Notes: generated by a model not told the origin, from the letters alone. A stretch of 40,470 nt of DNA from a virus (IMGVR_UViG_3300008997_001583:1-40470), one strand, 5' to 3'. Numbered from the stretch's first letter, positions 7,508-35,840 are shown. Translations and numbers: made by a program.

Positions 7508-8323
7508 TTAACCAATGTCAAAGTGGAGTGGTTCTTCCCAAGTAGTTCTTGATTCATCTTCTAATTTTTGAATTGTCTCCTTAGCCTCATTATATATCGT
7601 TTCACCGTTCATGGAAACTCCGCCCAACATTGTTACTCCTTGAAACTTAATAAGATTCTCACCCCACTGTTTCTTTATGAGAGCTGTTGTATATTTTTTT
7701 AGCCATAAATTATCATATACGTCTGTCCAGGTTGTAGGATCTAATTTTCGATAACATTCTATAATGATATGCTCTCCTACCTGAACATCATCACCCCAAT
7801 CCATATTAATATAAAGCCTATTCTTATGAGTATTAAACTGTAAAGGCTTTTCTCCTATTAAAATCATATCCAAATAATCTAAATGCCACATGGTCATTTG
7901 ATAGTGGATAACTGATTCGGATGAAAAATCATAGAGGTCATTTAATCTTAACTGATAACGAACATCAAACATATTAAGATTGCCTCTATCACTAAACGGC
8001 AGAACTCTTAACACACTTTGAACCGCATCAGGCATTACTAAAAATCCCTTCCCTGTTTTCCAATCTGTTGTTATTCCTGAATCCGATATATCAGTTGAAG
8101 TTTCCGTTTCATCTGTACCGGATCTAGCAACATCAGCTTCTGTAATTAAATGTTTAAGATATACACGCTCCATACCACTATACTGAAAAGTATAAAAGTA
8201 TTGAAGCGCTTCATCAATCCGATCATCGACCTGATCGTCATCAACATTAATTTCTAAAACAGGTGCTCCTAATTTTCGCAAGCACCAATCCTTCAATGTA
8301 GATTTAGAATTTGGTATAGCCAT
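7508..8323 (-). CDS. 13: Neck protein gp13
   Basis: A 271-aa protein starting MAIPNSKSTLKDWCLRKLGA, with QVDDRIDEALQYFYTFQYSG near residues 30-50 and a C-terminal KKQWGENLIKFQGVTMLGGV segment, all typical of T4-type gp13. Together with gp14 it completes the head before tail joining. T4 gp13 is 309 aa. Its ATG overlaps the stop of the upstream giant fibre gene in TAATG, so it is translationally coupled to a fibre gene rather than to fibritin as in T4. Confidence 0.93.
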   Translation of the reverse strand: MAIPNSKSTLKDWCLRKLGAPVLEINVDDDQVDDRIDEALQYFYTFQYSGMERVYLKHLITEADVARSGTDETETSTDISDSGITTDWKTGKGFLVMPDAVQSVLRVLPFSDRGNLNMFDVRYQLRLNDLYDFSSESVIHYQMTMWHLDYLDMILIGEKPLQFNTHKNRLYINMDWGDDVQVGEHIIIECYRKLDPTTWTDVYDNLWLKKYTTALIKKQWGENLIKFQGVTMLGGVSMNGETIYNEAKETIQKLEDESRTTWEEPLHFDIG

Positions 8324-14213: not shown

Positions 14214-14564
14214 CTATCTAGAAACGGAAGGCTGAACTACTAACCTACCCTCTAAAGTTCTTGTTTTAATTCCTAAAGAATCGGTTAATTGTAAATCCCA
14301 AACATATCTACCGTCTTTGAGGTTACCAGTTTGTGTGTCAGTCAATCCAAGCTCTAATTTCCCAGTAGTTCTATCTGCGGGCCAAGCAATAGTAAAGGTT
14401 TCAGATGCGGAGCTAGTTCCGTATCGTTTTCGTATTTGAGCTAAAGCGGTATAACCAGTTAAATCAAGGACTGTGATGTTTCCATCAGCATCTTCATTTG
14501 TCAATTCTACAGAAACCGAGAAATCTGCATCAGCTTCAACGACTAGATTATTAATTAGTGACAT
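14214..14564 (-). CDS. Ig-like small baseplate/structural protein
   Basis: A 116-aa protein predicted by eye to be all-beta, with DLTGYTALAQIRKRYGTSSA in the middle and YVWDLQLTD then RTLEGRLVVQPSVSR at the end. The C-terminal pattern 'Y.WDL.LTD....R..EG...V.P.VSR' is a recurrent feature of small phage structural (BppU-like upper baseplate or fibre-attached Ig-like) proteins. It is the first gene after the tetrapyrrole cassette. A late promoter overlaps the alaS stop 24 nt upstream of its ATG, with TTGGAG as Shine-Dalgarno, so it can be transcribed independently of the cassette. Confidence 0.6.
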   Translation of the reverse strand: MSLINNLVVEADADFSVSVELTNEDADGNITVLDLTGYTALAQIRKRYGTSSASETFTIAWPADRTTGKLELGLTDTQTGNLKDGRYVWDLQLTDSLGIKTRTLEGRLVVQPSVSR

Positions 14565-14587: not shown

Positions 14588-14595
14588 TATTTATA
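14588..14595 (-). promoter_or_regulatory. Late promoter overlapping the alaS stop
   Basis: The minus strand reads TATAAATA, 24 nt before the ATG of the 116-aa structural gene. The element overlaps the final codons of alaS, whose stop is at 14591-14593. It separates expression of the structural genes from the cassette. Confidence 0.7.
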
Positions 14596-15781
14596 AAATT
14601 TCGTTGTGTCGCATTGCATCCCTCAACTTAATTACCATATCATATATCATTAAATCCGTATGAAAAGGTCCTGGAGTAAACCTTAATCGTTCGGTACCCT
14701 TTGCTACGGTAGGATAATTTATAGGTTGTACATAAATCCCATCCTTATATAATAAATCATCACTAATTCTCTTACATTTTGTTGCATCACCTATAATAAC
14801 AGGAACAATATGTGATGGATTTTTCATTACGCTTATACCATTTCGTTCCAATTCTTCTTTAGTTTTTTGGGAACGCTCTTGCATAGTAAGCCTTAAGCTG
14901 TTATGGTCTCTAACATACTTAACAGAGGTCAAGGCTCCAGCACATATAACTGGACTTATACTTGTGGTGAATATGAATCCAGAAGATAAACTTCGTATAG
15001 CATCTAGAAAATCTTTATCAGCAGCAATATAACCTCCTTGTATTCCAAACGCTTTAGCTAATGTTCCGTTTATTATATCAACTTCAACACCATCACGTTC
15101 TGTAATACCGCCACCACCTTCTCCATATAAGCCTACTGCATGAACTTCATCTAGGAAAGTTATAGCTTTATATTTTTTACATAATGCTACAATTTCTTTT
15201 AATGGACATATATCTCCGTCCATAGAATAAACAGATTCAAAAACAACACATTTAGGATCAGGAGTTTTTTCAAGTAATTCTTTAAGATGCTTTAAGTCAT
15301 TATGTTTCCAAATTTCTTTCTTAGCTCTACTGTGTCGAATTCCTTGAATAATGGATGCATGGTTCATACTATCACTTATGAAAGTAATATCAGGCAAGAC
15401 TTTAGCCATAGTTTCTAAAGTTGCTGAATTTGCAATATAAGCTGAAGTAAAAAGCAGAGCGGCTTCTTTTTGGTGCAATTCTGCTAACTCTTGTTCTAAA
15501 GCAACATGATAATGTGTGGTGCCTGATATGTTTCTTGTTCCGCCTGAACCAGCACCAGAACTCTCCAATGCTGTTCGCATTGCATCTATAACATAACGGT
15601 GTTGACCCATGCCCAAATAATCATTTGAACACCAATTAACTATTCGTTTAACAGCGTATTTGGAATACCATATTGCTTGCGGAAATTTACCACGTTCTCT
15701 GAGGATATCATTAAAAACTCTATAGTTGCCTTCTTCTTTAAGGCCTTCTATAATTTCCTGAAATTTATCAAGATATATCAT
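14591..15781 (-). CDS. alaS: 5-aminolevulinate synthase (viral AlaS)
   Basis: A 396-aa PLP enzyme of the alpha-oxoamine synthase family, which condenses glycine with succinyl-CoA to 5-aminolevulinate (Shemin pathway). Residues below are numbered from the ATG at 15779-15781. They include WCSNDYLGM (50-58), [11 protein letters not shown] (78-88, typical of ALA synthase), [13 protein letters not shown] (137-149), [15 protein letters not shown] (209-223, with the Asp that binds the PLP ring nitrogen) and [16 protein letters not shown] (238-253) with Schiff-base lysine K243. The length fits the bacterial enzyme. No truncation or missing catalytic residue is visible, so it should be active. An in-frame TTG at 15787 is a less likely start. 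The ATG overlaps the pcyX 3' end, and a late promoter lies 6 nt upstream. It would feed the host heme pathway that supplies the neighbouring heme oxygenase. Confidence 0.93.
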
Positions 15782-16472
15782 GCTCAATATTTATACGGGG
15801 AAACAAAATATCTGAGCAAAACAAATTCACATCTTCTTCATCCAACCCTAAAGACTTCATTACCTTTGGGGTATGTGGATTCTTTTTTTGGTTGTCACAA
15901 TAATAATTTTGGCGTTCAGATACTTCTTGAACAATTCCCCTTCCATTAGATTCTGATACATTATCAAAATAATAATTTAAGTTTTTTAATGTTAGCATTA
16001 TAATATCTAATGATTCTGCTTCTGTATTAACATTACTAGCAGCAATCATAGAAGGAGAAAATATATTTAAGGCCCATTCAGGCAAAGACCTCTTTTTACT
16101 AGGAACAAAACTGGAAACAGAATCGGCAAACCACTGTATCATAAAATGATTCTTATCTGTTGTTGCAGAAAAATCATGGAAAGCTCCTGTCATTTTATTT
16201 TTACCTGATATAACATCAAAGCCAAATATTGGACTAGTATTATCTAAATTAGGAAAAATACAAACGTGCATCATCCATAATTTCTTTGTATCACGAACAT
16301 CCACAACATCTATATGGCAACGTCTAGTTGACTCGGTTTGCCATACTCTATTCATCCATCCAGGTTGGTTGAAATGATCCATACCCGGTTCAAATATTTC
16401 AACACCTACATCATCAAATTTTTTTATAAATTCATCTTGTAATGATATAAGGTTGTCCCATAAAACACTCAT
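15768..16472 (-). CDS. pcyX: Ferredoxin-dependent bilin reductase, PcyX-like
   Basis: A 234-aa protein with the bilin reductase core: [20 protein letters not shown] then [19 protein letters not shown] (residues 65-103). H69 and D86 align by eye with the catalytic His88 and Asp105 of PcyA, and D55 stands near PcyA Glu76. [11 protein letters not shown] (130-140) and [20 protein letters not shown] (196-215) followed by FCSDILFP are the remaining family blocks. The family reduces biliverdin IXalpha using ferredoxin; phage PcyX is reported to make phycoerythrobilin. I favour PcyX over PcyA or PebS because of the compact length, the PcyA-like His/Asp pair and the phage setting beside heme oxygenase, but the product cannot be proved from sequence. 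The ATG overlaps the upstream 38-aa ORF in ATGA and has no Shine-Dalgarno of its own, implying translational coupling. No ferredoxin gene is in the window. Confidence 0.88.
15788..15795 (-). promoter_or_regulatory. Late promoter inside the pcyX 3' end, before alaS
   Basis: The minus strand reads TATAAATA, 6 nt before the alaS ATG and embedded in pcyX codons (Arg-Ile-Asn-Ile). Chance occurrence in an AT-rich gene is possible, but the spacing matches other promoter-start pairs here (gp20 and the 35.8-kb pair). Confidence 0.5.
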
Positions 16473-16585
16473 GCAATAAACAATAAAATCAATATAACAA
16501 ACACTACCATGATTTGATGAGCAATATATTCATCTGATTTCAATTTTGGATAGCTCTGCAATAAAAATTTAAAAGTTTCTTTCAT
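16469..16585 (-). CDS. 38-aa single-span membrane peptide in the bilin cassette
   Basis: The ORF reads MKETFKFLLQSYPKLKSDEY and ends in one hydrophobic segment ([14 protein letters not shown], residues 25-38), so it looks like a C-terminally anchored membrane peptide. It starts 4 nt after the stop of the 97-aa membrane gene, with AAAAGG abutting the ATG. It ends in ATGA, sharing bases with the pcyX start, an arrangement that suggests it is translated and couples pcyX translation. I recognise no homologue. Possible roles are a membrane anchor for the reductase or for a redox partner, or purely a coupling leader. Confidence 0.55.
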   Translation of the reverse strand: MKETFKFLLQSYPKLKSDEYIAHQIMVVFVILILLFIA

Positions 16586-16589
16586 CCTT

Positions 16590-16883
16590 TTAACGCTGTT
16601 TAGCATCTTTTATGAATTTAGGAATCAATGCCAAATAGTAAAGAGCACCAAGACCTATACACCATAGAAGAATAGATTTGTATTCTGTTTGCCAACCAAT
16701 GAACATTAAAATAATACACGCTACATCTATAATTGAATAGTACAGCCTAAAATTAACTTCACCATTAGGTTCACATTTTTCAATAAGTTTTAATCTAGCA
16801 TTAAATAACCATGGGCTAATATGTCTCCCCATAACAAAAATATGCAACAGCAAAAATACTGTTAGTCCTATATAAAATAACAT
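16590..16883 (-). CDS. 97-aa three-span membrane protein in the bilin cassette
   Basis: The protein has three hydrophobic segments, about residues 2-18 (LFYIGLTVFLLLHIFVM), 48-64 (YYSIIDVACIILMFIGW) and 70-87 (SILLWCIGLGALYYLALI). A basic loop separates the first two and the end is basic (KFIKDAKQR). It starts immediately after the heme oxygenase stop (TAGATG), with GGAG 8 nt upstream, so the two are one transcript and probably coupled. I do not recognise the family. A few His residues (H14, H21) lie in or near the first helix, but there is no paired heme-binding pattern strong enough to call a cytochrome. The position suggests a role with heme or bilin, by context only. Confidence 0.75.
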   Translation of the reverse strand: MLFYIGLTVFLLLHIFVMGRHISPWLFNARLKLIEKCEPNGEVNFRLYYSIIDVACIILMFIGWQTEYKSILLWCIGLGALYYLALIPKFIKDAKQR

Positions 16884-17450
16884 CTACTCAACTCCTAAAT
16901 TATTTTGTTGTTGATATTCTAAAACTTCATCTAAAAGTTCATTAGATAATTCAAATACAGCAACAGCTTCATCATACATACTATCATCCAATTTTGAAAC
17001 AATTTCAGCTATAGCAGTTTTAGCATCATCAAATTCATAAAATTTTCCGGAACCCGGAACTTGATTTTTTAATATTTGACCACCATGTAGTTCACCCATA
17101 TGTCTAACATACACATGAGCCATAATTATTGTGGGGTTGTGGAAATTTTTTATTATCCTATCTTTATGCTTTTTTGTAGTGTTACAGGTGGGTGCCGGGA
17201 AATCTTTGTCCCATAATTCTTGAAAATCATCCAACAACTTAGAAGAACGAAGCGTATCTTCGTTAATTAAATTTAATTCAAGAGCTGCATTTTCTAATAC
17301 TACATAAATTTGATATAAATTCCAAAGATAAACTGCATATGTTTCAGGATCAATATCTCCTTTTAACATTTGTTCTGCTATTTCATGCCGTTCTGATTTA
17401 TGATGAACTTCCATCGTTAAAGAACGTAAATTATCTGTACGCTTATTCAT
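16884..17450 (-). CDS. ho1: Heme oxygenase (HO-1 type)
   Basis: A 188-aa protein that would open heme to biliverdin IXalpha, CO and iron. The N-terminal pattern LRSLTMEVHHKSE (residues 8-20) holds the proximal heme ligand H16 in the family arrangement L-R-x2-T-x3-H. YLWNLYQIYVVLE (41-53) and the distal-helix signature YVRHMGELHGGQILKN (114-129) with flexible glycines G119, G123 and G124 are diagnostic. VPGSGKFYEFDD follows, as in HO proteins. The ATG at 17448-17450 is chosen because it follows AAGAGG at usable spacing and starts right before the family's first helix. The longer frame from 17519 would read through a perfect hairpin. It heads the cassette, downstream of an RCC1 fibre gene. No obvious late promoter lies directly before it. 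Confidence 0.92.
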   Translation of the reverse strand: MNKRTDNLRSLTMEVHHKSERHEIAEQMLKGDIDPETYAVYLWNLYQIYVVLENAALELNLINEDTLRSSKLLDDFQELWDKDFPAPTCNTTKKHKDRIIKNFHNPTIIMAHVYVRHMGELHGGQILKNQVPGSGKFYEFDDAKTAIAEIVSKLDDSMYDEAVAVFELSNELLDEVLEYQQQNNLGVE

Positions 17451-17473: not shown

Positions 17474-17506
17474 CTATAGGGGTAGAAATTGCTTCTACCC
17501 CTATAG
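17474..17506. terminator. Perfect 14-bp hairpin between fibre gene and heme oxygenase
   Basis: The arms CTATAGGGGTAGAA and TTCTACCCCTATAG form a perfect 14-bp inverted repeat around the 5-nt loop ATTGC. It lies 20 nt beyond the fibre stop and 24 nt before the heme oxygenase ATG. Neither strand has a run of T after it, so it is not a textbook rho-independent terminator. It may act as an mRNA end-stabiliser, a partial terminator or an RNA processing site. Confidence 0.55.
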
Positions 17507-17526: not shown

Positions 17527-19785
17527 TTAGTCACACGGTCCGGAGTGCATGACATGTTGAGATTCTTGACCTTGGTCATTTCTTGAGTATTCCCAGAAAC
17601 TATAGTGAAAACAAGACCGGTGGGAATCGGAATCGTTACCTGTCCACAACATCTTACCTCTATCATCCATCCAAGCTTGCATTGGCCGGTGGGCGTAACC
17701 AAAAGCTCCAATATTCATAATTCTAGTACCAGCTGGGAGAAGTGCTCGACGTTTATTTGAATAATTCAGCTGATCAAAATCAGGATAGTTCTCAGCAGGA
17801 GATTCATCACTATTCCATCCCCAGGAGTTGCTGCTGCCCTCGTAGTAACCCAACCCTTTGTAGCCATAAGTATTATAACCACCACTCCAACAATCGCCAT
17901 TACTGTCTAGATATATCGGACTAGTCCATTGATAACTACCATCACCACCATCATGGTTATGACTAGTAGCATATTTGGTCCAGCGAGGACCCTTAATTTG
18001 TACAAAGTGTCCAGGATGACCAGTCGATTGATACCAATACATAGAACCAGACGGACTGTGTCCTAAATCGCCGTGAGCGTAATTGCCTGATGTAGTCCAA
18101 GTCATGCCGGTGCTTTTCTGTTTGAATGTAAAGTGGAATTCATAACCCGTTTCACCACCTGGCCAAAAATCTTCAATGTCGCCGTTTGGTCGGAAATTCA
18201 ATCGTTTAAATGAGCCCATTTGGTGTGAGTCGTGTCCGCCCATTCTACTAAACCCTGGCATCTGGCCTGCGCTGTGATGGCCAGCAGCCCACAACCAACC
18301 TTCACCATCCAATGCGAATAATAAACCGGTAGACGCTGAACTATCGCTTGGCACAAAATCTAATTTTTTAAGTCCGCCATAATAATTGAAATCAACACTA
18401 ACTAGTGTAGGAGTGTGCATATAGTAAGTACCATTCCGATGGCCAACTCCTAGTTCGCCGTTATTGTTATGACCCCAAGCCCAGAGCAACCCTTCTTCAT
18501 CTAATGCCCAGAATCTACCCTCATTGCTACCAGAAGCGTAAATATCTACGATCATTTTACCATCAAAGAAAAATTGTGGAATTCGCATTGGTCTACTAAA
18601 GTTAGAACTATACCATGCCCAAGTATTTGGATAAGTATAATCTTGTCCATCAGGACCTTTAGCTGTACCACTACCGTTGAAATCACCACTATTCTTTACA
18701 TCTGGGTTGCCAAAACCTAATTGACCGTTGTTATTATATCCCCACATCCAAACAGAACCATCTTGTCCTAAAGCCATAGTAGAAGAAGTGCTACTTGTAT
18801 TAGCTCCAGCTGAACTGGATTCTATTTTAATTATTTTTGTCTCACTAAAGCTTTTCGCAATTGGAGTACCTAACCAATCAATATGGTCATCAGCAGCACA
18901 GCGAACTGGATAATAGCGATCGGATGTTGATCGCTCTCCCAACTGTGAATTTCCATTATATCCAGCACCATAAACCTCTCCATTGTTCATTAAGAAGAAT
19001 GAATTGTGGGCACTACCTATACACTGTACAACCCGAGGAGTTTCACCATCAGGTGTAATCAGTCCTTCACCAGCTGCAGCTGCTAAAGTGTTCCATGAAC
19101 TATTATCTCCACTATTTAACCAATCAGTGAAAGTAAATCCAGGATAATGGTGTTTAGCTCTATTAGAGCTACCACCAACACTGCTGGCGCCAACGCCATT
19201 ATATCCATTTTGATCGTTACCACCAACGCACTGTACTGTTCCATCAGAACAAATATGCATGCTACTATAACCAGTCATTTGTTGACTCTGGTGCATCTTG
19301 TAGCCCATATTATATTTCCAACCTAATGGAGCACTGTTTCTAAATGCAATACCTTCGTGTCTACCATCTCGTCCTCTAGAGGATTCTAATACTTTAACCC
19401 AATAGTCCGTTTCTTCTACCCAAGTATTTTTATACCGAGTACCTTTTATACACTGGTAAAGATGTCCATTGGCTTTGCACATTTCTCCAACTTCATATTG
19501 GCGATGATAATCCCATGTTGAAACATCAACGTTGCCGCGAATATGAACAACCCAATAAGTTTTATTATCCGGCCGACACGACCATTTAACGACTTCGGGA
19601 TGCTCGAAATTATAGTGAGTGGTGCCTGTTGTACCTTCAGATGAAATACTATAATCTCGTGGATTATCTCTTATACACCGATAAGATTTGCCTTGCCATT
19701 GTACAATATCATTTTTATCATACCATGTTCGTTCTTGCCATGGACCTTTCCAGGTTAACTTTAATTTATTAATGTCTAAAGCCAT
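17527..19785 (-). CDS. RCC1-repeat tail fibre/adhesin C (752 aa)
   Basis: The N-terminus reads INKLKLTWKGPWQERTWYDK followed by NDIVQWQGKSYRCI, the shared 'W-G-W ... Y..D.V...g..Y.C' module found at the start of all four large fibres here. A second module lies near residues 110-140. From about residue 175 onward there are roughly seven RCC1-type blades with repeated 'G.V..wG.N..GQLG' cores, for example MALGQDGSVWMWGYNNNGQL and FWALDEEGLLWAWGHNNNGE. RCC1 repeats fold as a seven-bladed propeller, here probably a receptor-binding or adhesive head. No cupredoxin segment is present, unlike paralogue A. AAGGG precedes the ATG. It is the last fibre gene before the tetrapyrrole cassette. Confidence 0.82.
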   Translation of the reverse strand: MALDINKLKLTWKGPWQERTWYDKNDIVQWQGKSYRCIRDNPRDYSISSEGTTGTTHYNFEHPEVVKWSCRPDNKTYWVVHIRGNVDVSTWDYHRQYEVGEMCKANGHLYQCIKGTRYKNTWVEETDYWVKVLESSRGRDGRHEGIAFRNSAPLGWKYNMGYKMHQSQQMTGYSSMHICSDGTVQCVGGNDQNGYNGVGASSVGGSSNRAKHHYPGFTFTDWLNSGDNSSWNTLAAAAGEGLITPDGETPRVVQCIGSAHNSFFLMNNGEVYGAGYNGNSQLGERSTSDRYYPVRCAADDHIDWLGTPIAKSFSETKIIKIESSSAGANTSSTSSTMALGQDGSVWMWGYNNNGQLGFGNPDVKNSGDFNGSGTAKGPDGQDYTYPNTWAWYSSNFSRPMRIPQFFFDGKMIVDIYASGSNEGRFWALDEEGLLWAWGHNNNGELGVGHRNGTYYMHTPTLVSVDFNYYGGLKKLDFVPSDSSASTGLLFALDGEGWLWAAGHHSAGQMPGFSRMGGHDSHQMGSFKRLNFRPNGDIEDFWPGGETGYEFHFTFKQKSTGMTWTTSGNYAHGDLGHSPSGSMYWYQSTGHPGHFVQIKGPRWTKYATSHNHDGGDGSYQWTSPIYLDSNGDCWSGGYNTYGYKGLGYYEGSSNSWGWNSDESPAENYPDFDQLNYSNKRRALLPAGTRIMNIGAFGYAHRPMQAWMDDRGKMLWTGNDSDSHRSCFHYSFWEYSRNDQGQESQHVMHSGPCD

Positions 19786-19814
19786 GTTTGTTTACCCTTA
19801 TTTTAAATTATTTT

Positions 19815-20213
19815 TTAGAATCCAAGACTTGCTTTAAATTCTTCTTCTTCTGTTCCGATTGCAGCGATAGATGCTAATACATCAGCATCACTATCTACTA
19901 TACCTTGCAACAATTTCGATAGAGGTGTATTTAAGGTAAGTTTTGATTGAATGTCCACCGTTCCTCGAATTAGGACCTGACTCACCGCAGCTACTTCCGC
20001 TAATGCAGCTGCATCAGTGGTTTTATCATATACGGTAACTTCAAAATCTCCCTGACCTGTTGTTACTGTTACCTTTGCGTCATCATAAGAAAACCATTCC
20101 TTATCATCATGTGAAGCCAAGAACACAGGGGTATCTTCTACATCAGCTACCACTGGCGCAACATAATCATCTGTAAGGGCAATGGACTTGTGACTAAAAA
20201 TCTTCTTCGCCAT
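19815..20213 (-). CDS. Unrecognised 132-aa late protein between fibre genes
   Basis: The protein begins MAKKIFSHKSIALTDDYVAP. Its first half is beta-rich and acidic, and its C-terminal third is helical with LLQGIVDSDADVLASIAAIG before EEEEFKASLGF. I do not recognise a family. It lies between two RCC1 fibre genes on the same strand, with GGAG before the ATG and a late promoter 44 nt upstream. A virion component or a fibre chaperone would fit the position, but nothing in the sequence decides between them. Confidence 0.65.
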   Translation of the reverse strand: MAKKIFSHKSIALTDDYVAPVVADVEDTPVFLASHDDKEWFSYDDAKVTVTTGQGDFEVTVYDKTTDAAALAEVAAVSQVLIRGTVDIQSKLTLNTPLSKLLQGIVDSDADVLASIAAIGTEEEEFKASLGF

Positions 20214-20256
20214 TTTAACTATTCTCCATTTAAAAGTTATATTTTTTTGTTATTAA

Positions 20257-20264
20257 TATTTATA
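20257..20264 (-). promoter_or_regulatory. Late promoter before the 132-aa gene
   Basis: The minus strand reads TATAAATA, 44 nt before the ATG at 20213 and just past the stop of the upstream RCC1 fibre gene at 20268. It likely drives the 132-aa gene and the downstream fibre, and perhaps the heme oxygenase cassette by read-through. Confidence 0.7.
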
Positions 20265-20267
20265 TGT

Positions 20268-22934
20268 TTACCGACCCATGCCAGGATTAGACATTAGTCC
20301 ATTATTGTTACTGTTATAACACCATGAATTATGGCCATTTAAGTGATTGCCTTCATTAGATGAATAACCGCTAAATCCCCATAATAGGATTTGACCATCT
20401 TCTGTTATAACCCACGGCATATTACCAAAGTAATTGGTACTTTCATATATGCCTTGAGGAATAACATGACTTATTTTCGTGCCAGCAGGAATATACTTGT
20501 GATATGGCTTATATGTGCCATCTTCACCTGTCCAATTGCTGCCTGCATATGGATTGCCACCTTCATTATAAGAATCATAGCCTTGTCCTAAGAACTCACC
20601 GGAATCGGTAAGAGCCCAAGTATGACCAACATCACTATATGTTCCGCATGTACCAATATCTTTAAGATTTTTAATCTTTGTAATAAGTGAAGGTGGATAA
20701 TCAGATCCAGTAGCACCATCCAACCCGAGATAATTGCCGCTTGAAGCTCCGGCATGATATGTATCGCCGTTTTTAGTTCTTATAAAGAGTCCGACATAAC
20801 CGTTCCAGGAGATTCCCCAAATATCAACAATATCACCACCAGGTGCAGATGTCATTTTGACCCATCCGTCTTGGTGGTTTGTTGTATCTGATCCTCCGGA
20901 ATTACCATAACCGTTATATCCAGAGTGCCATATATACCCATTATTATCTAAAATCCAAATACTGGTGTTGCCACTATACCCAGCAATTTGCCAACAAGCC
21001 ATACCATCCACTGCTGGATCCCACTGGTTAGTAGCTGACCCACCACCACCAATTTTTACTGGTCGATAATGGTTTGTTGTATTGGATTGTCCAAGTTGGC
21101 CAACACCATTATAACCCCAACCATACAGATGATCGTCTTGAGTTCGTGCAACCATTGTGGAGCTGTGTCCTGAGCAAGCAATATCAATTACTCGTTTGTT
21201 TTCAAAATATTCTTGAGGAATTTTGAATGGAGAGCCCCAATGCTCGGTACGACCTCTACCAAGCTCGCCGTTGCCATTATAGCCCCATGTCCAAACCTGG
21301 CCTTTATCATCAAGAGCCATACAAGCATGATTATTAGTCTCTGTTGGACCACTGTTAGCCGCAATCTTAACAATAAACACACCACGTAGGTTTTGACCTA
21401 CTTGAGGCATCCGATGATCGCTAAATTGCCCATGGCCCGCCTGGCCGTGTCCACCATAACCTTTATGCTGGACTTCTCCGTTATCAAAAAGGAAATACTT
21501 CCAATCATAACCTTGACAAATCTGAACACACTTAGGTGTCCTTCTCTTATCAGCTCGATTTGTGTGTCGGCCGTTTGAAGAAAACCCTTTAATGCTAGGA
21601 TCATTATGGCCAAAATGACTTTTATCTCCTGATTCATTCCAATCTCTAAATACAAAATCTACTTCCGAAAAATAACTTAACGGACGAGTTGTGTGTGGTG
21701 TTGATGAACTACCATAACCCAAAGAATACACGCATCCATTTTTATCAATAAATGTTCTATTGCGATAGATGCCTGTCCCTGGGTTGTTCAATGGCTCTTT
21801 ATATTTCCAAGCGATCCGACCCATATTAGATGCCCAAATAGCTGCCTGATCGTTACTATTACCACCACTAATTTGTTCCCAACTATTATGCCAACTTTGA
21901 ATTGGACTATATTTGCCCATAGCATCTTTAGATCGTCCTGATGTTGTTGCAGCATCTGCCATCAAGTCGGAACGAGTTCTATTCATTTCTTTGGTCATAT
22001 ATGGAGGTGCACCAACATTATCTCGTAGTGCCCTATAAAAACCAGAAGTATTACTTGACTCTTGACTTTTCATAGATACTATATCACCCCAATAATATTG
22101 AGTTGAAGCATCATAATCTCCTCTATAGTTTATTCCACCCATAGACATTAAGTCCCAATATTCGTGTCCGATCCAACCTTTATTAACATGGATTCCTTTA
22201 CTATCATACATTGCTGCAGTAGTTTTAGAGAAAGGATAAATTTTCTCATATCCAACAGGAACATGAAGTTCTACTTTACGATTTAAATTTTCTATATCTT
22301 GATAGGTGCTACTAGTCGTGTTTAATGTTGCTTCATAATGTGCCTGGGTAACCTCTTTATTATTTAAAAAGTATTTAAGAGGCGAATCATCCCCTGATGT
22401 CCAAAGCGAAACACCGCTGTTATGAGTACCATCAGCTGTTATGCTGAAATCTAAAGGATACCCCTTTTCAGCTGGGCCGTTTTGATGAAAACTATAATAA
22501 CCCATTTCAGCAAATGAAACATCCATTCCATTTTCATCAATACCTAAAGTTTCAGGCGTTTTAATACTATCAATATAATATTTCATAACGCCGGCACCAA
22601 TATCTACTCTTTCTACTTGGTGGTTGTTATCTACTGGTCGATAATTATAAGGAAAATTAGAAGTATCATCAAAGCTATGATAAGCATTAATATCTTCATC
22701 TGTTTCCAAATGTCCGCTAAATTTAGAACGTAAATTCCATAGCGTTTTATAATTTTTATATCCCTGTCCTTTATCGCCAGGAGCAAATGTTTCATGTGAA
22801 TTTGGGGAATAAGATTTTTTACAATACCAAATCTTACCGCCGTGCTGGACCGTATCACCTACTTCATAGGTAATATTAGGATCCCAGTCCCCTTCAAATG
22901 AAAACTTTAATTTTCCTAAATCAATTGTTGCCAT
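20268..22934 (-). CDS. RCC1-repeat tail fibre/adhesin B (888 aa)
   Basis: The start LGKLKFSFEGDWDPNITYEV, followed by GDTVQHGGKIWYCK, is the shared N-terminal module, and a second copy begins near residue 270 (INYRGDYDASTQYYWGDIVS). Between them a region with YSFHQNGPAEKGYPLDFSIT aligns in position with the cupredoxin-like segment of paralogue A, but the first ligand His is Tyr and no Cys-x2-His-x3-Met follows, so any copper site is lost. From about residue 395 onward there are roughly eight RCC1-like blades, such as ACMALDDKGQVWTWGYNGNG and MVARTQDDHLYGWGYNGVGQ. CAGGAAAAA precedes the ATG. The likely role is receptor binding. Confidence 0.82.
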   Translation of the reverse strand: MATIDLGKLKFSFEGDWDPNITYEVGDTVQHGGKIWYCKKSYSPNSHETFAPGDKGQGYKNYKTLWNLRSKFSGHLETDEDINAYHSFDDTSNFPYNYRPVDNNHQVERVDIGAGVMKYYIDSIKTPETLGIDENGMDVSFAEMGYYSFHQNGPAEKGYPLDFSITADGTHNSGVSLWTSGDDSPLKYFLNNKEVTQAHYEATLNTTSSTYQDIENLNRKVELHVPVGYEKIYPFSKTTAAMYDSKGIHVNKGWIGHEYWDLMSMGGINYRGDYDASTQYYWGDIVSMKSQESSNTSGFYRALRDNVGAPPYMTKEMNRTRSDLMADAATTSGRSKDAMGKYSPIQSWHNSWEQISGGNSNDQAAIWASNMGRIAWKYKEPLNNPGTGIYRNRTFIDKNGCVYSLGYGSSSTPHTTRPLSYFSEVDFVFRDWNESGDKSHFGHNDPSIKGFSSNGRHTNRADKRRTPKCVQICQGYDWKYFLFDNGEVQHKGYGGHGQAGHGQFSDHRMPQVGQNLRGVFIVKIAANSGPTETNNHACMALDDKGQVWTWGYNGNGELGRGRTEHWGSPFKIPQEYFENKRVIDIACSGHSSTMVARTQDDHLYGWGYNGVGQLGQSNTTNHYRPVKIGGGGSATNQWDPAVDGMACWQIAGYSGNTSIWILDNNGYIWHSGYNGYGNSGGSDTTNHQDGWVKMTSAPGGDIVDIWGISWNGYVGLFIRTKNGDTYHAGASSGNYLGLDGATGSDYPPSLITKIKNLKDIGTCGTYSDVGHTWALTDSGEFLGQGYDSYNEGGNPYAGSNWTGEDGTYKPYHKYIPAGTKISHVIPQGIYESTNYFGNMPWVITEDGQILLWGFSGYSSNEGNHLNGHNSWCYNSNNNGLMSNPGMGR

Positions 22935-22957
22935 TGTTGTTTTTCCTGTTTAAAATT

Positions 22958-25549
22958 TTATCCAATTGCTGGTGGTTGCGCTATTGTCTGCCTGTGCTCG
23001 GCCATATTACCGTGCATTGATGTAGGATATCCTGACATACAAATACGGTTCCGATCATTTTTCCACACATAATGCCAATAATGACTAGTTGTGTCATTAC
23101 CAGCATAATGAACCGGCCTAATATCTTCCATGTGACCTTGAAAATCATTCATTAGTCTGGGCATTTGCAATTTACCATTATTCTTTTCTTCTACTAGATT
23201 GGGTAAATTTTGTGAAGCACCTGCCCAAGTATCAGTATACCCCATTGATAGTGAGCCTTGATTATTCCTGCCATTAACAAAACAGCTTCCTGAATTTGTA
23301 ATAACACCTACATTAACATAATGGTAAGAAGTGCTGTTACCCATATTGTTATTAACCACCTTTTTAATATTTGTAACCGCTGCGGTTAGACCCCCAATAG
23401 TCCATTCTGGAATTACTGGTGCTGTTGAGTCTGTTGTTGTGCCGTTGCACAGTTGATATGAATTATTACGGCCACAAGAATTAACTACTCCACTTGTATT
23501 CTGTGTCCACATTGATCCAAATTGACCGTTGCCAACAAACCAGAAATTGTCACAATCACCTGTGCCACTACCGTGTCCTAAAGCAGTCTGTACAAATGAA
23601 TTCTGTTGTGCGGTTCCTCCAGCCATAGCCCAACCATACCCATTATATCCACAGGTGTATAATCTGCCGTCGTCAGCTAAAACAGCCGCTCGGCCGTAAC
23701 TACCCCTCCCATCAACCTGGACTTTTACGATTTTAGTAGTTGTAGCAGCAAAAGTTGTAGTAGCAGTAGAGCCTGATGGTCCGATACATGGCACTGGCAC
23801 CGATTGGTTAGAAGTATTGCCTCGTCCTAATTGACCATATCCATTATAACCGCAACTGTAAAGCACGTTTGTTGCTGTTAAGAAATAACTGCACCCATAA
23901 GTATGACCACACAACCACATATCAATAATATCTTCATTAAGGAAGAATGCTCTGTTAATTTTTGTGGGCTGAGTTCGCTGGGTTGTTGTACCATCTCCCA
24001 ATTGACCATAACCGTTGTATCCCCACATCCAAACATCACCATTCTCATCAATAGCACCACAATGGTGTGTACTATCCGGACCATCCCAATCACTTATAGC
24101 TATTTTGGAAATTCTCAAATCTCTCCAAGTATGATTTGTTGCATTGGTTGCTTCATATACATTTTGGTAAGAACCACCAACTCTTACTGGATAACTTCTG
24201 GTAGAAGTTGATGCATCACCACTTTGGCCGTGTCCACCATAACCCCAGTGATATACTTCACCATTGTTAAATAATGCCATACCAGTGTCATACCCCTGTA
24301 ATAGTTGAATACATTTAGGAACTTGTCCATCAGGAGTTTTGTGAACGCCTGTTCCGCCGTGGTCGGTGGAACGATACCAATCTAAAAACGGAAAAACCAC
24401 ATTTGTTGCTGTATAAAATGTTTGATTTGTACCACTTCCGCCTCCACTATTTGAACCTATATGCATTACGCCGCCGCGGCCGTTGATCCAATTGACCATA
24501 TTGACTGAATATGTGCCTGGAAATTGTCCATCTTTACTTCGTGAAAGTAACTCTGACCCAATAATTCTATCGTGATTGGAGATTTCTAAGGTCTCCAAAT
24601 AATCACCAGTAAACGTAGCAATCTGACCTTGTGCTTTATTTGAAGCTATAACTGAATCATCAAAGTCGTGTCTAGAATTAATTAATTTCCAATTTGAATT
24701 ATTATCCCAAGGCTTAGTAGCTTGTGTACCATCAGCTGTATTTTCTATAGTACAAATGTACATTGCTTCAGTTGACCGAGATTGGTCAGCCATAAGCATT
24801 CCGGTACCAGAAAAGGATGCGCCGCCTAACGTATTATCATAATCTACCGTAACTTTAACAACATCATTCTTATAATATACTGTGCCGTTTGTATTATCAT
24901 GTGTGCCTCGATAATTAAAACTTTCCCTAATTGGTGTCCAATACTGTGTTGCGTTTGTTACTGCAATTTCATTACCCATACCAGCACCATGTGCATCACA
25001 GAAATACCATAAATCTGCTGGTGATCCACCAACAGGTGCATCAGGTGCAAATTTGATTTCTATTCTGCGTGTTGTAGCTGCATTGAATTTTGCCAATGTT
25101 GACCATTCTGTTTGAGTTACCCACGCACCATCTAAATAATAACGAACATTCTTCGTATATAGATTTGATGTTTGTGACGATGCTGTTGTAGCAAACTCTA
25201 AAGGGTGTCCATCATTAGAAGAATCATCTAAATTAAAATGATGTGTTTCACCTCGGTTCACAGTAAGAGCTGGATTCGTAGTTGCAGCACTTGGATTGCC
25301 TACCCCTTCTCCAGCAAAATGGAATGTATTTCCTGATCCTGAAGGATACAGAGTTCCTGCTGCAACAGTAACGGTATAAGTTACTGACTTTGGAATTGCA
25401 GGTGCCTGAGCCGCTGGAACAGTTGTTAATGCTACAAAATCTGTATTACGATGTTCTACTACATCATCTTCCAGATAAGTCGCACCATTATCAAAGGCTC
25501 CTTTATAATTGAAATGCAGATTCCCTATTTGTGTTGTTGTAACTGCCAT
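22958..25549 (-). CDS. RCC1-repeat tail fibre/adhesin A with cupredoxin-like domain (863 aa)
   Basis: Three regions are visible. Residues 8-45 are the shared N-terminal module (IGNLHFNYKGAFDNGATYLE). Residues about 55-197 look like a cupredoxin: NPALTVNRGETHHFNLDDSS, then GHPLEF with H115, then LWYFCDAHGAGMGNEIAV with C184, H187 and M191. These match the His, Cys, His, Met type 1 copper set, and the segment resembles the plastocyanin C-terminal loop. A second W/Y module follows near 210-290. From about 420 there are roughly seven RCC1-like blades, for example GAIDENGDVWMWGYNGYGQL and VLADDGRLYTCGYNGYG. GAGGAAC precedes the ATG. It is most likely a virion fibre; whether it binds copper is unknown. 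Confidence 0.83.
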   Translation of the reverse strand: MAVTTTQIGNLHFNYKGAFDNGATYLEDDVVEHRNTDFVALTTVPAAQAPAIPKSVTYTVTVAAGTLYPSGSGNTFHFAGEGVGNPSAATTNPALTVNRGETHHFNLDDSSNDGHPLEFATTASSQTSNLYTKNVRYYLDGAWVTQTEWSTLAKFNAATTRRIEIKFAPDAPVGGSPADLWYFCDAHGAGMGNEIAVTNATQYWTPIRESFNYRGTHDNTNGTVYYKNDVVKVTVDYDNTLGGASFSGTGMLMADQSRSTEAMYICTIENTADGTQATKPWDNNSNWKLINSRHDFDDSVIASNKAQGQIATFTGDYLETLEISNHDRIIGSELLSRSKDGQFPGTYSVNMVNWINGRGGVMHIGSNSGGGSGTNQTFYTATNVVFPFLDWYRSTDHGGTGVHKTPDGQVPKCIQLLQGYDTGMALFNNGEVYHWGYGGHGQSGDASTSTRSYPVRVGGSYQNVYEATNATNHTWRDLRISKIAISDWDGPDSTHHCGAIDENGDVWMWGYNGYGQLGDGTTTQRTQPTKINRAFFLNEDIIDMWLCGHTYGCSYFLTATNVLYSCGYNGYGQLGRGNTSNQSVPVPCIGPSGSTATTTFAATTTKIVKVQVDGRGSYGRAAVLADDGRLYTCGYNGYGWAMAGGTAQQNSFVQTALGHGSGTGDCDNFWFVGNGQFGSMWTQNTSGVVNSCGRNNSYQLCNGTTTDSTAPVIPEWTIGGLTAAVTNIKKVVNNNMGNSTSYHYVNVGVITNSGSCFVNGRNNQGSLSMGYTDTWAGASQNLPNLVEEKNNGKLQMPRLMNDFQGHMEDIRPVHYAGNDTTSHYWHYVWKNDRNRICMSGYPTSMHGNMAEHRQTIAQPPAIG

Positions 25550-25577
25550 TTTTGTTCCTCTATACTAATCCTTTATA

Positions 25578-28500
25578 TTATGTAACTGTAAGTTGTAAAT
25601 GTCCCTTTGAAGAAACAGCAACATCTGTTGTCGTACTTCCATGGAACCATTGCGTATCAACCATATCGGTATTTGGCAATGATGTTGATTGCGATGGCAC
25701 ATTAAAGTTAGTGGACCTAATTTCTATCAAAGCACCAGTCAAAGGATCTGCATATAAAGCTGTTGTTGTTGAAGTAGCTTCTTCGTCAACATAAACTTTA
25801 TTTGTAACATCATTATTGACAGTTGGCGCAATTGCTGTTTGTGTCTGTGCTTCAAGTAAAATCTTACCTGTACCATCTGTTTGTAATTTTAAATCTCCAT
25901 TAGTTGCTGTAGTAATAATAATGTTACTATGTAGTTTTAACTGACCAACAAGAATTTCGTTGACTGTCAGGTTGTTACTACCACCACCTAACTGGGTTTC
26001 AACATACGTTCTAATTGCTTTCTCTGTTACAAGAGCATTATCTGAATTTCCTGACAACGTTCCATCTGTCGAGAATTCTGAAACTGTAGCCCCAAAACTT
26101 CCAAGTGCAACAGATCCTAGTGACAGTTCTTGTAGACCTGAAAGGTCAAAACTCTCAGCATTAAGTGTAGCCTTACCAGTGGCCTGATGTACTTTGAATA
26201 GGTCACCAACTCTGTAGTTACCATCTTGGTCAGTCGATGTGTAGAATACTCTACCACGATCTTTCTCAATAACCTCATCGTCAGCATCGGATGCCTGTAA
26301 TGGTTCTTCAGTCGGATAGTTGGTGTCTGCAAAACTACCAGTACCAATATCCAAGAAGTCATGTCCAGTCATTCTGATGTTAGAGTACTTATCCCTAAAC
26401 GTAATAGCTGTATTGTCAGGCGGAGTTAATGCCTTTGTTATAAGCGGCGAACAAGTAATTGTTGCCTGTCCAAGACCACCTGTAACTGCATTGGCCGTTG
26501 AAGCAACAAATGTATGTGCTGTTGTGTTAGATGATACACCAACATTCACGGTAAGTGTATCTGCTGTTACTGCTGTGATGGACAATGATGCACCATTACC
26601 TGCAGGATCAGCTGGCCGTGGGTATAAATGGTTACTACCATGACTATCTTCAGCACAAGTAAATGTTAAACTTTGATTTGCAATCTCTATTGTTTGACCA
26701 ACTGTCAAGGAGTGTGCCCCAACTGTTAATACTAATACACCTGTTCCGGGATTATATGTTGCCGCAGACGGAGTAAACTTTGTCTGGCCCACATAATTAG
26801 TAGCACTAACAACCAAGTAACTTGTATTGCCGTCATGTGCAAACTGAAAACTAGCTCCTTCTTTAGGTTCCTTTGATAGACCATCAGCAACAAAACTGTT
26901 ACCCACTGGGTTGATGTTTGAATAACCATCACCACTTATGGTTCCTGTTGTTGTTGCAGTCTTATATCCTGTACCACCCACAGTAATAGTTGATTGGCCA
27001 ATTACTCCATTACCTATTATAGGAGTTGCAGTTCCTAATGTTGTTGCATTGGGGTCAGTAATTATTGCTGTTGGTGCAGAACTATATCCTGCTCCAGCAT
27101 CAAGAATAAAGATTTTCTGAATCTTCGCCGACTTAACCGACACTCTAGCCAAAGCCGTTCTAGATGGTGTACCACCGCCTGTGAAATGAATTCGTGGTTC
27201 AATTTCATAAGTCGTTGTGGCATCTAGTGTTGTCTCAGCAGATGATCTGCCTCCAAAATAATCCCAACCAGAACCTGCAGCTTCATTAACTATTGTACAA
27301 ACTTTAGTTGATCCGTTATGGGCACTAATAATACCTGTCTGACCTGTGCCAGTACCATCGGTAATAGTAATTCTCATTCCATTATAGAAACCCGTTACGT
27401 TTGTATCTGACAAAGCAAGAGTAATAGTTGTTGCAGTACCAGTCTGAGCAGACGATGTAGTTGTTACATGGTTCTCACCAGTTGTTGTAACATCAACGTG
27501 TCTAACACCACCATCATTGATAGCAAGTGTAGCAGCCCCACTAGCGCCTGCACCAGAAAATGCGATTGTAGCAGTTTCTATAGTAGCAACATTAAATGTT
27601 AGTGCAGGTGCACCGCCGCCTCCCAACTGAGAGTCGTTGATACTAATTGTATCAGTTGCGGCATGAGCATCACCACCACTAATTAGGAGATGACCTGTTA
27701 CTTGACCAGAACTACCAATATCTATATTAACTATTAAGCCAGTACCAGAACCTGTTGTAGCGTCTTGAGTACAAGCAACATAAGAACCTTGAGTTCGTGA
27801 ACCGTGAGCCGCACCAAAAGTACCTAGTGTAGCGGCAACGCCATGGTTATAATTATTACCAGCGTATTCAAATTCGATTCTCTGTATAGCACCTGTGCCT
27901 GCAGTATTATGTCCTGCAAGTACTCGTCCCACTATAGCCTGTTGGCTTAAGTTATTAACAGTACCTGTTGCAGGTACTTCAAGTGGGTCTACACCAGAAG
28001 ATACAGCTCCGTATTCTCCGTATGAGTTGTTACAGTTTGCAGCTCGAATTGTACCACCCGAATCTGCAAGGTAACCCATATGACAATAGTATGTAAACAC
28101 AGATACAATTTCTGATCGGCCAGCGTTCTTTGTCCAAACACCAACACCATCATCACATATCTGTGTGAAGTCATTAGCAAGAATAGAATCATAACCCATC
28201 GGGTGTAATCCACCATCAATCTTAATGCCTACAGCACCAGAATAACTAATGTGTACTGCGTTCTGAACAAATGGTGACTGTAGATAAACAAGTCCGTTCG
28301 GATCAAGAGCAACAGCAACACCAGACCTTGTAGCGCCTGCTGTTTCTGTCGGTCGTTGTAGACCATCAGATGAAGCAGATGCCAACTGACCGATAAGACC
28401 CGTCATGGTCATGCCACGAATAGTAGTCTTTTCGTTCATCTGGAACATATCAGAGCGGTTGTTAGGTGTTGAACCGTCATCTGAATTACCGGAAGTAGGT

Positions 28501-30362
28501 TTGACTGTAACACTTCTCATTTCATCACCCATAACGGCAACACCTTCTGGGACTTTAATCGGTAACTGCTCTTCATAGATACCGGTCCTAACAAATAAAG
28601 TTCTAGAATCGGTTGTTGGTGTAACTAGTGCAGGCAAAGTCGAAAGACCGCTATCTAAAGCATTAGTATCTATTAAAATACTAGCAGTAATAATTGCATC
28701 AGTGCCAGCTTCTCCATTGTTCCCGGAAGTGTCCTGTGTAGTTATTACTGGAGATTGTAGTGAACTATAAGCTGTACCAGTGAATATATTGTTATTAATA
28801 ATATCACGCAATTTTTCGTGAACAAGCTTTTCTGGTTCCCGTGTACCGTCAATTAATGCGGTATCACCAGAAGGGCCACCAGGATAAGTGTCATTTGCCC
28901 AAAACATCATAGCAAACTGTCTGATCCAAGAATTACCCCCATAGACCATATCATGGTCTAAAGAATCAATTAAATAACCAACGTCCCTTTCGCACTTACC
29001 ACTGTCGTATGTATAATTATACCAAGGTGAACCAGGGTTGCTAGTATTAAGAAATACCTGTTGAGCAATCCAAGCAACGACCTCATCTTTCAGGAATTCT
29101 TTATTATTAGTTAATCGAAGCGAAGCATCAGGATTAGATTTTGCAGCTGAATCTAATGCTTCACAAGCATATTTAATTGTTAAATAAGGCTTATCAGGTG
29201 TTGTTCCTCGTCCTGAAGTAGCATCATCCGCACCGTTCTTACCAACATAAAACACACCAGGAACAACACCAGAATAACCCCATTCTGGCTCTTGACCGGC
29301 AGAATCAACTTTAAGAACTTGTCCGGATGTACCAATAGGAATTCTATAATTTGCAGTAGCATTTCGTGATAGCACATCACCCCGTTGGGTTAATACTGCC
29401 TGCGAATCACCCTCTGCAAGTACATCCCAGTAAGTTCCGATACTGTCTGTAACCGGATCATTAACACCATTTGAAGCAGTGTGAGTAAGCTTACAACGAT
29501 AAGAATTTGCTAGATGACTAACTGTGTCACCTGGATTATAAACCGTAGTGTCTGTCCAACTATCTCTCCATGTAAAGCCTTCTACAATTTTTTCCCAATG
29601 TGTTGCTGAATCTGGGGTGTTTCCTGTTGTATCTACTTTAGCAGAATATGAATGTCCGCCAAAGATTACAACATCACCTGGACTATAAGCAGTAGAATTA
29701 TTATATGTACTCTTTAATTTAAATCCAGTAGATAATATTTCCCAATCAGAAGTATTATTATAAGGAGAAACCCCTACATTTTGTCTAACAGCGGCATAAG
29801 TGTATCCGCCATAAGTTACAACATCACCTAACTGGTACTGTGTGCCTGCTGCCCAAGAATCCTCAAATTCTAAACCAGAAGCAAATAGATCAAATTTAGT
29901 TTCGTCTAATGTAGCACCTGCGGTGTGTTGTGTGTTACAAATATATGTTGATGCACCATACTTGACTACATCATTAAGTTTGTAATCTGTTGCGTTTGTG
30001 TAAGCACCCTTCCAAGCAAACCCAGAGTTATACTCTGTCCACTTTGCTGTATCATCATATAAACTAGCTTGTGATGTGTGTCCGGTGTTACAAATATAAT
30101 TCTTACCACCCCAAGAAATTACTTCGTCTACTTTATAATAAGTAGTTGCGGTCCATGCACCTTTCCAAGCCTGTCCACTTGTAAACTTTGCTAGTTTAGA
30201 AGCAGCAAGGTCAACATAAAAATCTGCATTTGAGGTGTGGTTTTCCTTTACGACATAAACATTACCACCATACTCCACACAATCATCTTTAATGTATGCT
30301 GTGGCTGTTGTCCATTCGCCTTTAAATTGGAATCTAATTCTTCCTAATACAAAATCTGCCAT
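25578..30362 (-). CDS. Large tail fibre/spike with six carbohydrate-module repeats and beta-helix (1594 aa)
   Basis: The first about 310 residues contain six tandem modules of 45-55 aa with the pattern 'W.g.W...t.Y..gD.V.y.g..Y.c...ht', for example FKGEWTTATAYIKDDCVEYG and WKGAWTATTYYKVDEVISWG. This resembles chitin/cellulose-binding CBM5/12-like modules and common marine phage baseplate/fibre modules. Then FYVGKNGADDATSGRGTTPD, just before KPYLTIKYACEAL, begins a probable right-handed beta-helix of the kind found in tailspikes. Gly/Thr-rich beta sequence follows. The C-terminus (GNSDNALVTEKAIRTYVETQ then GTGKILLEA) resembles other cyanophage-type fibres. A host-surface binding, possibly glycan-degrading, spike is the best guess; no catalytic residues are identifiable. 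AGGATAAAA precedes the ATG. Confidence 0.82.
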   Translation of the reverse strand: MADFVLGRIRFQFKGEWTTATAYIKDDCVEYGGNVYVVKENHTSNADFYVDLAASKLAKFTSGQAWKGAWTATTYYKVDEVISWGGKNYICNTGHTSQASLYDDTAKWTEYNSGFAWKGAYTNATDYKLNDVVKYGASTYICNTQHTAGATLDETKFDLFASGLEFEDSWAAGTQYQLGDVVTYGGYTYAAVRQNVGVSPYNNTSDWEILSTGFKLKSTYNNSTAYSPGDVVIFGGHSYSAKVDTTGNTPDSATHWEKIVEGFTWRDSWTDTTVYNPGDTVSHLANSYRCKLTHTASNGVNDPVTDSIGTYWDVLAEGDSQAVLTQRGDVLSRNATANYRIPIGTSGQVLKVDSAGQEPEWGYSGVVPGVFYVGKNGADDATSGRGTTPDKPYLTIKYACEALDSAAKSNPDASLRLTNNKEFLKDEVVAWIAQQVFLNTSNPGSPWYNYTYDSGKCERDVGYLIDSLDHDMVYGGNSWIRQFAMMFWANDTYPGGPSGDTALIDGTREPEKLVHEKLRDIINNNIFTGTAYSSLQSPVITTQDTSGNNGEAGTDAIITASILIDTNALDSGLSTLPALVTPTTDSRTLFVRTGIYEEQLPIKVPEGVAVMGDEMRSVTVKPTSGNSDDGSTPNNRSDMFQMNEKTTIRGMTMTGLIGQLASASSDGLQRPTETAGATRSGVAVALDPNGLVYLQSPFVQNAVHISYSGAVGIKIDGGLHPMGYDSILANDFTQICDDGVGVWTKNAGRSEIVSVFTYYCHMGYLADSGGTIRAANCNNSYGEYGAVSSGVDPLEVPATGTVNNLSQQAIVGRVLAGHNTAGTGAIQRIEFEYAGNNYNHGVAATLGTFGAAHGSRTQGSYVACTQDATTGSGTGLIVNIDIGSSGQVTGHLLISGGDAHAATDTISINDSQLGGGGAPALTFNVATIETATIAFSGAGASGAATLAINDGGVRHVDVTTTGENHVTTTSSAQTGTATTITLALSDTNVTGFYNGMRITITDGTGTGQTGIISAHNGSTKVCTIVNEAAGSGWDYFGGRSSAETTLDATTTYEIEPRIHFTGGGTPSRTALARVSVKSAKIQKIFILDAGAGYSSAPTAIITDPNATTLGTATPIIGNGVIGQSTITVGGTGYKTATTTGTISGDGYSNINPVGNSFVADGLSKEPKEGASFQFAHDGNTSYLVVSATNYVGQTKFTPSAATYNPGTGVLVLTVGAHSLTVGQTIEIANQSLTFTCAEDSHGSNHLYPRPADPAGNGASLSITAVTADTLTVNVGVSSNTTAHTFVASTANAVTGGLGQATITCSPLITKALTPPDNTAITFRDKYSNIRMTGHDFLDIGTGSFADTNYPTEEPLQASDADDEVIEKDRGRVFYTSTDQDGNYRVGDLFKVHQATGKATLNAESFDLSGLQELSLGSVALGSFGATVSEFSTDGTLSGNSDNALVTEKAIRTYVETQLGGGSNNLTVNEILVGQLKLHSNIIITTATNGDLKLQTDGTGKILLEAQTQTAIAPTVNNDVTNKVYVDEEATSTTTALYADPLTGALIEIRSTNFNVPSQSTSLPNTDMVDTQWFHGSTTTDVAVSSKGHLQLTVT

Positions 30363-31649: not shown

Positions 31650-31802
31650 ATGCAGAAATTAAAACAACCTAAGCGTGTAAAAAAGAAACTTATAATAATG
31701 ATGTCGGCCAGTTCGGCCGAACATCATAATGGATGGCCACCAGATAGACAATCTCGCAAGAAAGGACCAAAATTAACAATACTATTCAAACACATCAAAT
31801 AA
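31650..31802 (+). CDS. Short basic plus-strand protein (50 aa)
   Basis: The ORF starts MQKLKQPKRVKKKLIIMMSA and ends GPKLTILFKHIK. It is strongly basic with no Cys and no membrane span. It has a late promoter (31607-31614) and a GAGGAAC Shine-Dalgarno about 10 nt before the ATG, and it fills most of the otherwise empty 264-nt gap. Its 3' end overlaps the convergent radical SAM gene by 21 nt. An inverted repeat (GATGTCGGCC / GGCCGAACATC, one bulge) lies within the coding region. The function is unknown. A nucleic-acid-binding protein is possible, and a substrate peptide for the neighbouring radical SAM enzymes is speculative. Confidence 0.5.
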   Translation: MQKLKQPKRVKKKLIIMMSASSAEHHNGWPPDRQSRKKGPKLTILFKHIK

Positions 31803-35822: not shown

Positions 35823-35823
35823 T

Positions 35824-35839
35824 ATATAAATATTTATAT
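35824..35839. promoter_or_regulatory. Palindromic shared late promoter for divergent genes
   Basis: The 16-bp palindrome ATATAAATATTTATAT contains TATAAATA on the plus strand (35825-35832) and on the minus strand (35831-35838). The plus gene starts at ATG 35841 and the minus gene at GTG 35822, each 8 nt beyond its own element. No Shine-Dalgarno lies between element and start on either side, so both transcripts look leaderless or nearly so. Confidence 0.65.
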
Positions 35840-35840
35840 T

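Follow-up and report, generated by a model that had tools for sequence, protein, structure and literature searches.

A T4-like marine phage probably carries an operon that both supplies and consumes heme in order to produce a bilin. In the 40,470-base IMG/VR virus fragment that we have analysed (IMGVR_UViG_3300008997_001583:1-40470, referred to here as the window), genes for a heme oxygenase (HO), a PcyX-type bilin reductase (FDBR) and a 5-aminolevulinate synthase (AlaS) lie in leftward order on one strand. The identities of these genes, their order, the conserved slot they occupy, the purifying selection acting on them and the PcyX signature residues of the reductase are the observations from which this reading starts.

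The window comes from the structural part of a T4-like phage genome, with genes for tail tube, sheath, terminase and neck and with RCC1-like tail genes; relatives include cyanomyoviruses and pelagimyophages. All on the minus strand, HO (16884..17450) is followed by a small gene, ORF97 (16590..16883), FDBR (15768..16472) and AlaS (14591..15787). The slot is flanked upstream by an RCC1-like tail protein (17527..19785, minus strand; Pfam RCC1) and downstream by a tail-fibre assembly protein (14214..14564, minus strand; phrog_3304, L-shaped tail fiber protein assembly), and a gp13 neck protein homologue with 58.6% identity to a neck protein of Pelagibacter phage Mosig lies further on (7508..8323, minus strand). 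A first-pass annotation of this DNA had described intact HO, bilin reductase and AlaS genes in this order, and the genes, the PLP lysine, the H69/D86 pair and the proximal His were all found as described. It had also presented them as a tight three-gene series; order and strand hold, but the fourth gene between HO and FDBR had been missed. ORF97 encodes a small membrane-like protein of 97 aa with hydrophobic stretches that matches phrog_31495 (E 1e-10). We have rejected it as a component of the cassette and regard it as probably a passenger gene, since it is also present in another locus (L416) where HO, FDBR and ALAS are absent within 4 kb. Beyond the slot, genes for large tail proteins follow one another in tandem (17527-30362), and RCC1-like repeats occur in at least two of these proteins; past the tail genes (31782-40463), genes of radical SAM, glycosyltransferase-like, acetyltransferase and SET-like type are clustered, recognised partly by eye.

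The cassette proteins are identical in two IMG/VR contigs and 89-95% identical in a third, the 13-kb L335. Against L335, dN/dS is 0.26 for HO, 0.13 for ORF97, 0.18 for FDBR and 0.07 for AlaS, so purifying selection acts on all four genes and the cassette is neither a chance assembly nor a decayed one. A perfect 14-bp hairpin (17474..17506; fold z -4.9) lies between the tail gene and HO; by eye, an altered version is present at the same place in L004 and a hairpin of different sequence in L005. A possible role of the hairpin is to terminate the tail transcript or to set the cassette apart from it. The late promoter motif TATAAATA occurs 12 times against 6.9 expected, with no copy just upstream of HO, and no promoter for the cassette was identified by the motif count and a scan of the window.

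By profile and tree placement the last gene of the cassette encodes a 5-aminolevulinate synthase. It scores 574.7 bits against the TIGR01821 equivalog (cut-off 338.55), the rival BioF/Kbl/SPT models score below both their own cut-offs and the ALAS model, and the protein falls in the phage-type ALAS clade with support 100/99. The PLP lysine is K245 in GTLAKAFG (K243 when counted from the internal ATG), and the 11-residue ALAS motif named in the first-pass annotation is present. The gene starts at TTG 15787 or ATG 15781 and shares 14-20 nt with the 3' end of the FDBR gene. A grouping with 2-amino-3-ketobutyrate CoA ligase, which would have spoken against its being an ALAS, was looked for with profiles and tree and was not seen; the profile cut-offs and the tree together reject both that enzyme and BioF. 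A Lys occupies the position of the heme-feedback His342 and no Cys is found near the C-terminus (compare Cys400). As a phage adaptation the loss of this His is a weak candidate, because most of the cellular ALAS compared are without it as well.

With close phage AlaS included in the tree, the window AlaS is sister to those of two Pelagibacteraceae MAGs (L101 and L102; SH-aLRT 97), one of which belongs to SAR11 IIa.A and has the gene on the chromosome beside hemN- and ubiH-like genes (by eye). The whole group is nested inside the phage-type clade, making a phage-to-cell transfer of the SAR11 AlaS possible; monophyly of the phage AlaS alone is not rejected (AU p 0.056), so the transfer may have gone either way. 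A separate uptake of the window AlaS from SAR11 was dropped once closer phage AlaS joined the tree. Several contigs from MAGs with the labels Flavobacteriales, Marinimicrobia and Rhodobacteraceae (L103, L104, L106, L109 and L173) seem to be phage DNA that was binned with bacterial genomes.

The reductase matches PF05996 with 62 bits (cut-off 31) and, judged by sequence, is of the PcyX type, as had been claimed. Among solved structures it is closest to PcyX 5OWG (E 1e-75, against about 1e-10 for PcyA), it belongs to a PcyX clade of 27 rows that includes 5OWG and Mosig (SH-aLRT 99), and besides H69 and D86 it has the PcyX-specific D55, within HID at 53-55. Position 55 (PcyA Glu76) is Asp in the window and the other PcyX-clade rows, Mosig and 5OWG included, whereas cyanophage and cyanobacterial PcyA rows have Glu (HIE/HLE at 53-55). 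PcyA was discarded as an assignment on account of this Asp and of a score of 84 bits against the NCBIfam PcyA model, whose cut-off is 206. Asp at this position has been described as PcyX-specific and its absence held responsible for the PcyA activity of phage CB_2 (Wegner et al., PMC11480375); therefore phycoerythrobilin (PEB) is the expected, and probably the actual, product. Two of the contigs L184-L186, which belong to a Rhodobacteraceae MAG (G058), have FDBRs that show HLK rather than HxD at 53-55.

These predicted activities, which we expect to be co-expressed, would form a single route. The phage AlaS would feed 5-aminolevulinate (ALA) into the heme route, enzymes of the host (or, in related phages, partly of the phage) would convert ALA to heme, the phage HO would open heme to biliverdin IX-alpha, and the PcyX-type reductase, with host ferredoxin, would reduce biliverdin IX-alpha to phycoerythrobilin, a transfer of four electrons. 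Bilin rather than iron would then be the point of the pathway. Heme that is made and then broken yields no net iron, because each new heme takes one iron and HO gives it back, so an operon or slot that holds genes for both synthesis and breakdown is better explained by bilin production than by iron scavenging.

The arrangement is not peculiar to this phage. A viral hemO-pcyA/X-alaS cassette was described by Wegner et al. in 2024, who also showed a phage AlaS, HO and PcyA of this kind to be active (PMC11480375), and the background invoked by the first-pass annotation (viral PcyX with HO, phage AlaS with heme-catabolic genes) is thus published. On its sequence, the window is a well-supported further case. 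Using the reductase as bait we retrieved 161 relatives and kept 80 loci, 78 of which have an HO match. In 75 of these, HO is on the strand of the reductase and ends no more than about 420 bp upstream of it; in L009, L058 and L068 it lies about 2.0-2.3 kb upstream. In the two loci without a match (L050 and L060) only 7-18 bases separate the start of FDBR from the contig end, making them uninformative on HO. The surroundings of most of these loci are different and include ClpS and Hsp20 genes. When AlaS served as bait, relatives were encoded by at least 584 viral-contig stretches, and 28 of the 80 loci kept have HO and FDBR within 10 kb. HO, FDBR and ALAS are contiguous in 20 of these IMG/VR loci, three of them from the window lineage; on all contigs that include both flanks, the cassette has an RCC1-like tail gene on one side and gp13 on the other. 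In cassette phages outside the window lineage gp13 follows directly; in this lineage three tail genes stand between AlaS and gp13. This slot is common to two phage groups even though their structural proteins share only about 40-60% identity.

A sister phage with other heme-synthesis genes at the same place is new here. Judged by the reductase, L005 is the closest relative outside the window lineage (82% identity, with 83% for the terminase), and it has HO-PcyX in the same surroundings with HemE, HemC and a hydroxylase-like gene in the place of AlaS; its HemC scores above the equivalog cut-off, and its HemE is below the NCBIfam cut-off but reaches 195 bits against PF01208. Among 50 virus records with HO-PcyX or AlaS, HemC was found only in G014 and in G004, the record that contains L005, and HemE in these two and in G016. 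The 107-kb G014 combines AlaS and HO-PcyX with a HemF-HemC-HemE-HemB operon (L236 1656-5185, contig 3300000101_000007), AlaS lying about 7.7 kb further on; its HemE and HemB fall below the NCBIfam cut-offs but far above those of Pfam. Other viral contigs (L259, L400) also carry HemF-C-E(-B) clusters, sometimes with AlaS nearby. By eye, AlaS in L103 and L104 has neighbours similar to those of the G014 operon, which suggests a second slot in which AlaS and HemFCEB may alternate. The "putative ferrochelatase" near HO-PcyX in Mosig (L100 2904-3674) and the one in HTVC008M (L225 6809-7450) have no Pfam match at E 0.001, so we have rejected them as heme-synthesis genes. The earlier proposal that the phage borrows the ALA-to-heme enzymes of its host is hence plausible for the window fragment, but related phages bring some of these enzymes themselves. 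Judged by gene content, the pairing of ALAS or HemC/E with HO-PcyX points to a bilin as the wanted product.

The most serious rival, to which we give a substantial chance although short of an even one, is that heme supply comes first: AlaS, with HemB/C/E/F in the relatives, would sustain respiratory and other heme enzymes, and HO-PcyX would clear excess or damaged heme. What makes it serious is that 45 of the 80 AlaS loci kept (from at least 584) have neither another of the heme genes searched nor HO or FDBR within 10 kb or up to the nearer contig end; with so many phages of this kind, AlaS may serve heme supply alone, and this is the explanation favoured by Wegner et al. (PMC11480375). Two further results count against the bilin explanation: no bilin-binding partner was recognised, and no phage ferredoxin (2Fe-2S) was found in 32 related virus records. 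However, synthesis is tied to degradation by the compactness of the operon and by the replacement of AlaS with HemE/HemC immediately after PcyX, and PcyX is unnecessary for the removal of heme.

Iron scavenging, in which HO would free iron for the many 2OG-Fe(II) oxygenases of the phage, seems unlikely to us. Genes for such oxygenases do adjoin HO in Mosig, and one family of them occurs in 49 of the first-fetched HO-FDBR and AlaS loci, but this explanation runs into the absence of net iron gain when AlaS or HemC/E stands beside HO, and it leaves PcyX unexplained.

The HO is itself a variant, with a predicted heme oxygenase activity. It matches PF01126 with 65.4 bits (cut-off 23), and its start is taken as ATG 17450, giving 188 aa, because the longer TTG frame runs through the strong hairpin; the proximal His is H39 in the TTG frame and H16 from this ATG, so that both the start and the H16 implied earlier were borne out. 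The distal motif GELHGGQ had also been reported correctly, but alignment to human and bacterial HOs shows that it is not canonical, having Glu at the catalytic Asp (Asp140 of human HO-1), and the distal helix carries a Ser to His change as well. In a first comparison GD..GG was present in 76 of 83 HO entries, and the seven with Glu were all copies of this lineage, duplicate loci counted. The Asp belongs to the proton-relay network of human HO-1, where Asp140His cuts activity (PMC7948506). Because most HOs use an Asp for catalysis at this position, HO activity is less certain here than in other phage HOs. It is conceivable, although we think it improbable, that the HO of the window lineage is no longer a standard one and has changed its regiospecificity or taken on a heme-binding role. 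The two substitutions agree with this, as does the identity to the L005 HO of only 42-44%, against 82% for the reductases. On the other side, GELHGGQ recurs in a second HO lineage (the L184-186 contigs, which also hold FDBR genes), the window HO is under purifying selection, and plant HO-1 works although it has neither the Asp nor the Arg (PMC7948506).

The host is probably SAR11. The terminase, 65-67% identical to those of cyanomyoviruses, lies at a similar distance from the phages of SAR11 and from cyanophages, and its tree gave no decision between the two kinds of host. The non-phycobilisome host assumed by the first-pass annotation is nonetheless likely, given that psbA was found in none of the 32 related records and that chromosomal ALAS of SAR11 is the sister of the window AlaS. 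These same two facts, together with the presence of PcyX in the SAR11 phage Mosig, make it quite doubtful that the cassette supports light harvesting in a cyanobacterial host with phycobilisomes, the role proposed for PebS of cyanophages, despite the similarity of the terminase to cyanomyoviruses and the probable PEB product. Neither FDBR nor HO was found in 197 genomes of the order of the SAR11 IIa.A MAG (G054, the genome of L102), so a phage with a host of that order would bring in a pathway absent from the cell. HemB was found in 183 of these genomes, AlaS in 9 and GtrR in none, and most of them seem to make ALA by a route invisible to the models used; the family is said to use the Shemin pathway only (PMC11480375), which conflicts with AlaS in only 9 of 197.

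Taking all of this together, we propose tentatively that the slot between the tail-fibre genes and gp13 combines HO-PcyX with whichever heme enzyme limits flux in the host (AlaS here, HemE and HemC in the sister phage), and that some HO-PcyX phages hold most of the pathway (AlaS, HemB, HemC, HemE and HemF). This would amount to a dedicated glycine-to-bilin route in hosts without HO and FDBR, the bilin having a phage-specific use, and the SAR11 IIa.A AlaS may derive from such a phage. The operon narrows the question of why phages of non-photosynthetic bacteria degrade heme: if they also bring heme-making enzymes, iron gain becomes an improbable motive, and the focus shifts to the role of the bilin in the infected cell. 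The window lineage, L005 and G014 are concrete phages for rebuilding the route, and the slot swap and the HO variant open the question "why a bilin?" to better tests.

Several known systems resemble the one described in this work. The hemO-pcyA-alaS island of Bradyrhizobium ORS278 (PMC11480375) brings the same three functions together, but it is bacterial, stands beside a phytochrome gene and has PcyA rather than PcyX. A deep pelagimyophage group also has heme-synthesis genes, for coproporphyrinogen oxidase and porphobilinogen deaminase, which in the parts of that report consulted are not linked to HO-PcyX (Zaragoza-Solas et al. 2020, PMC7029224); within the partial coverage of our literature search no such link was found. 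In Pelagibacter phage Mosig EXVC030M (MT647606) HO likewise adjoins PcyX and the pair lies directly before the neck genes; its FDBR is 50.7% identical to that of the window and its HO only 32%, and a search of phage records gave no AlaS match in Mosig. PcyX_EBK42635 (5OWG), the closest solved reductase, shares D55, H69 and D86 and belongs to a different PcyX subclade. The cassette of Wegner et al. (PMC11480375) is alike in having the three enzymes together in aquatic phages with a phage-type AlaS. The window differs from it in ORF97, which separates HO from FDBR, and the details that are new are the Glu for Asp in HO, the AlaS that is closest, as a sister, to the chromosomal AlaS of SAR11 IIa.A, the sister phage L005 with HemE-HemC in the AlaS slot, and the phage that combines ALAS with HemF-HemC-HemE-HemB.
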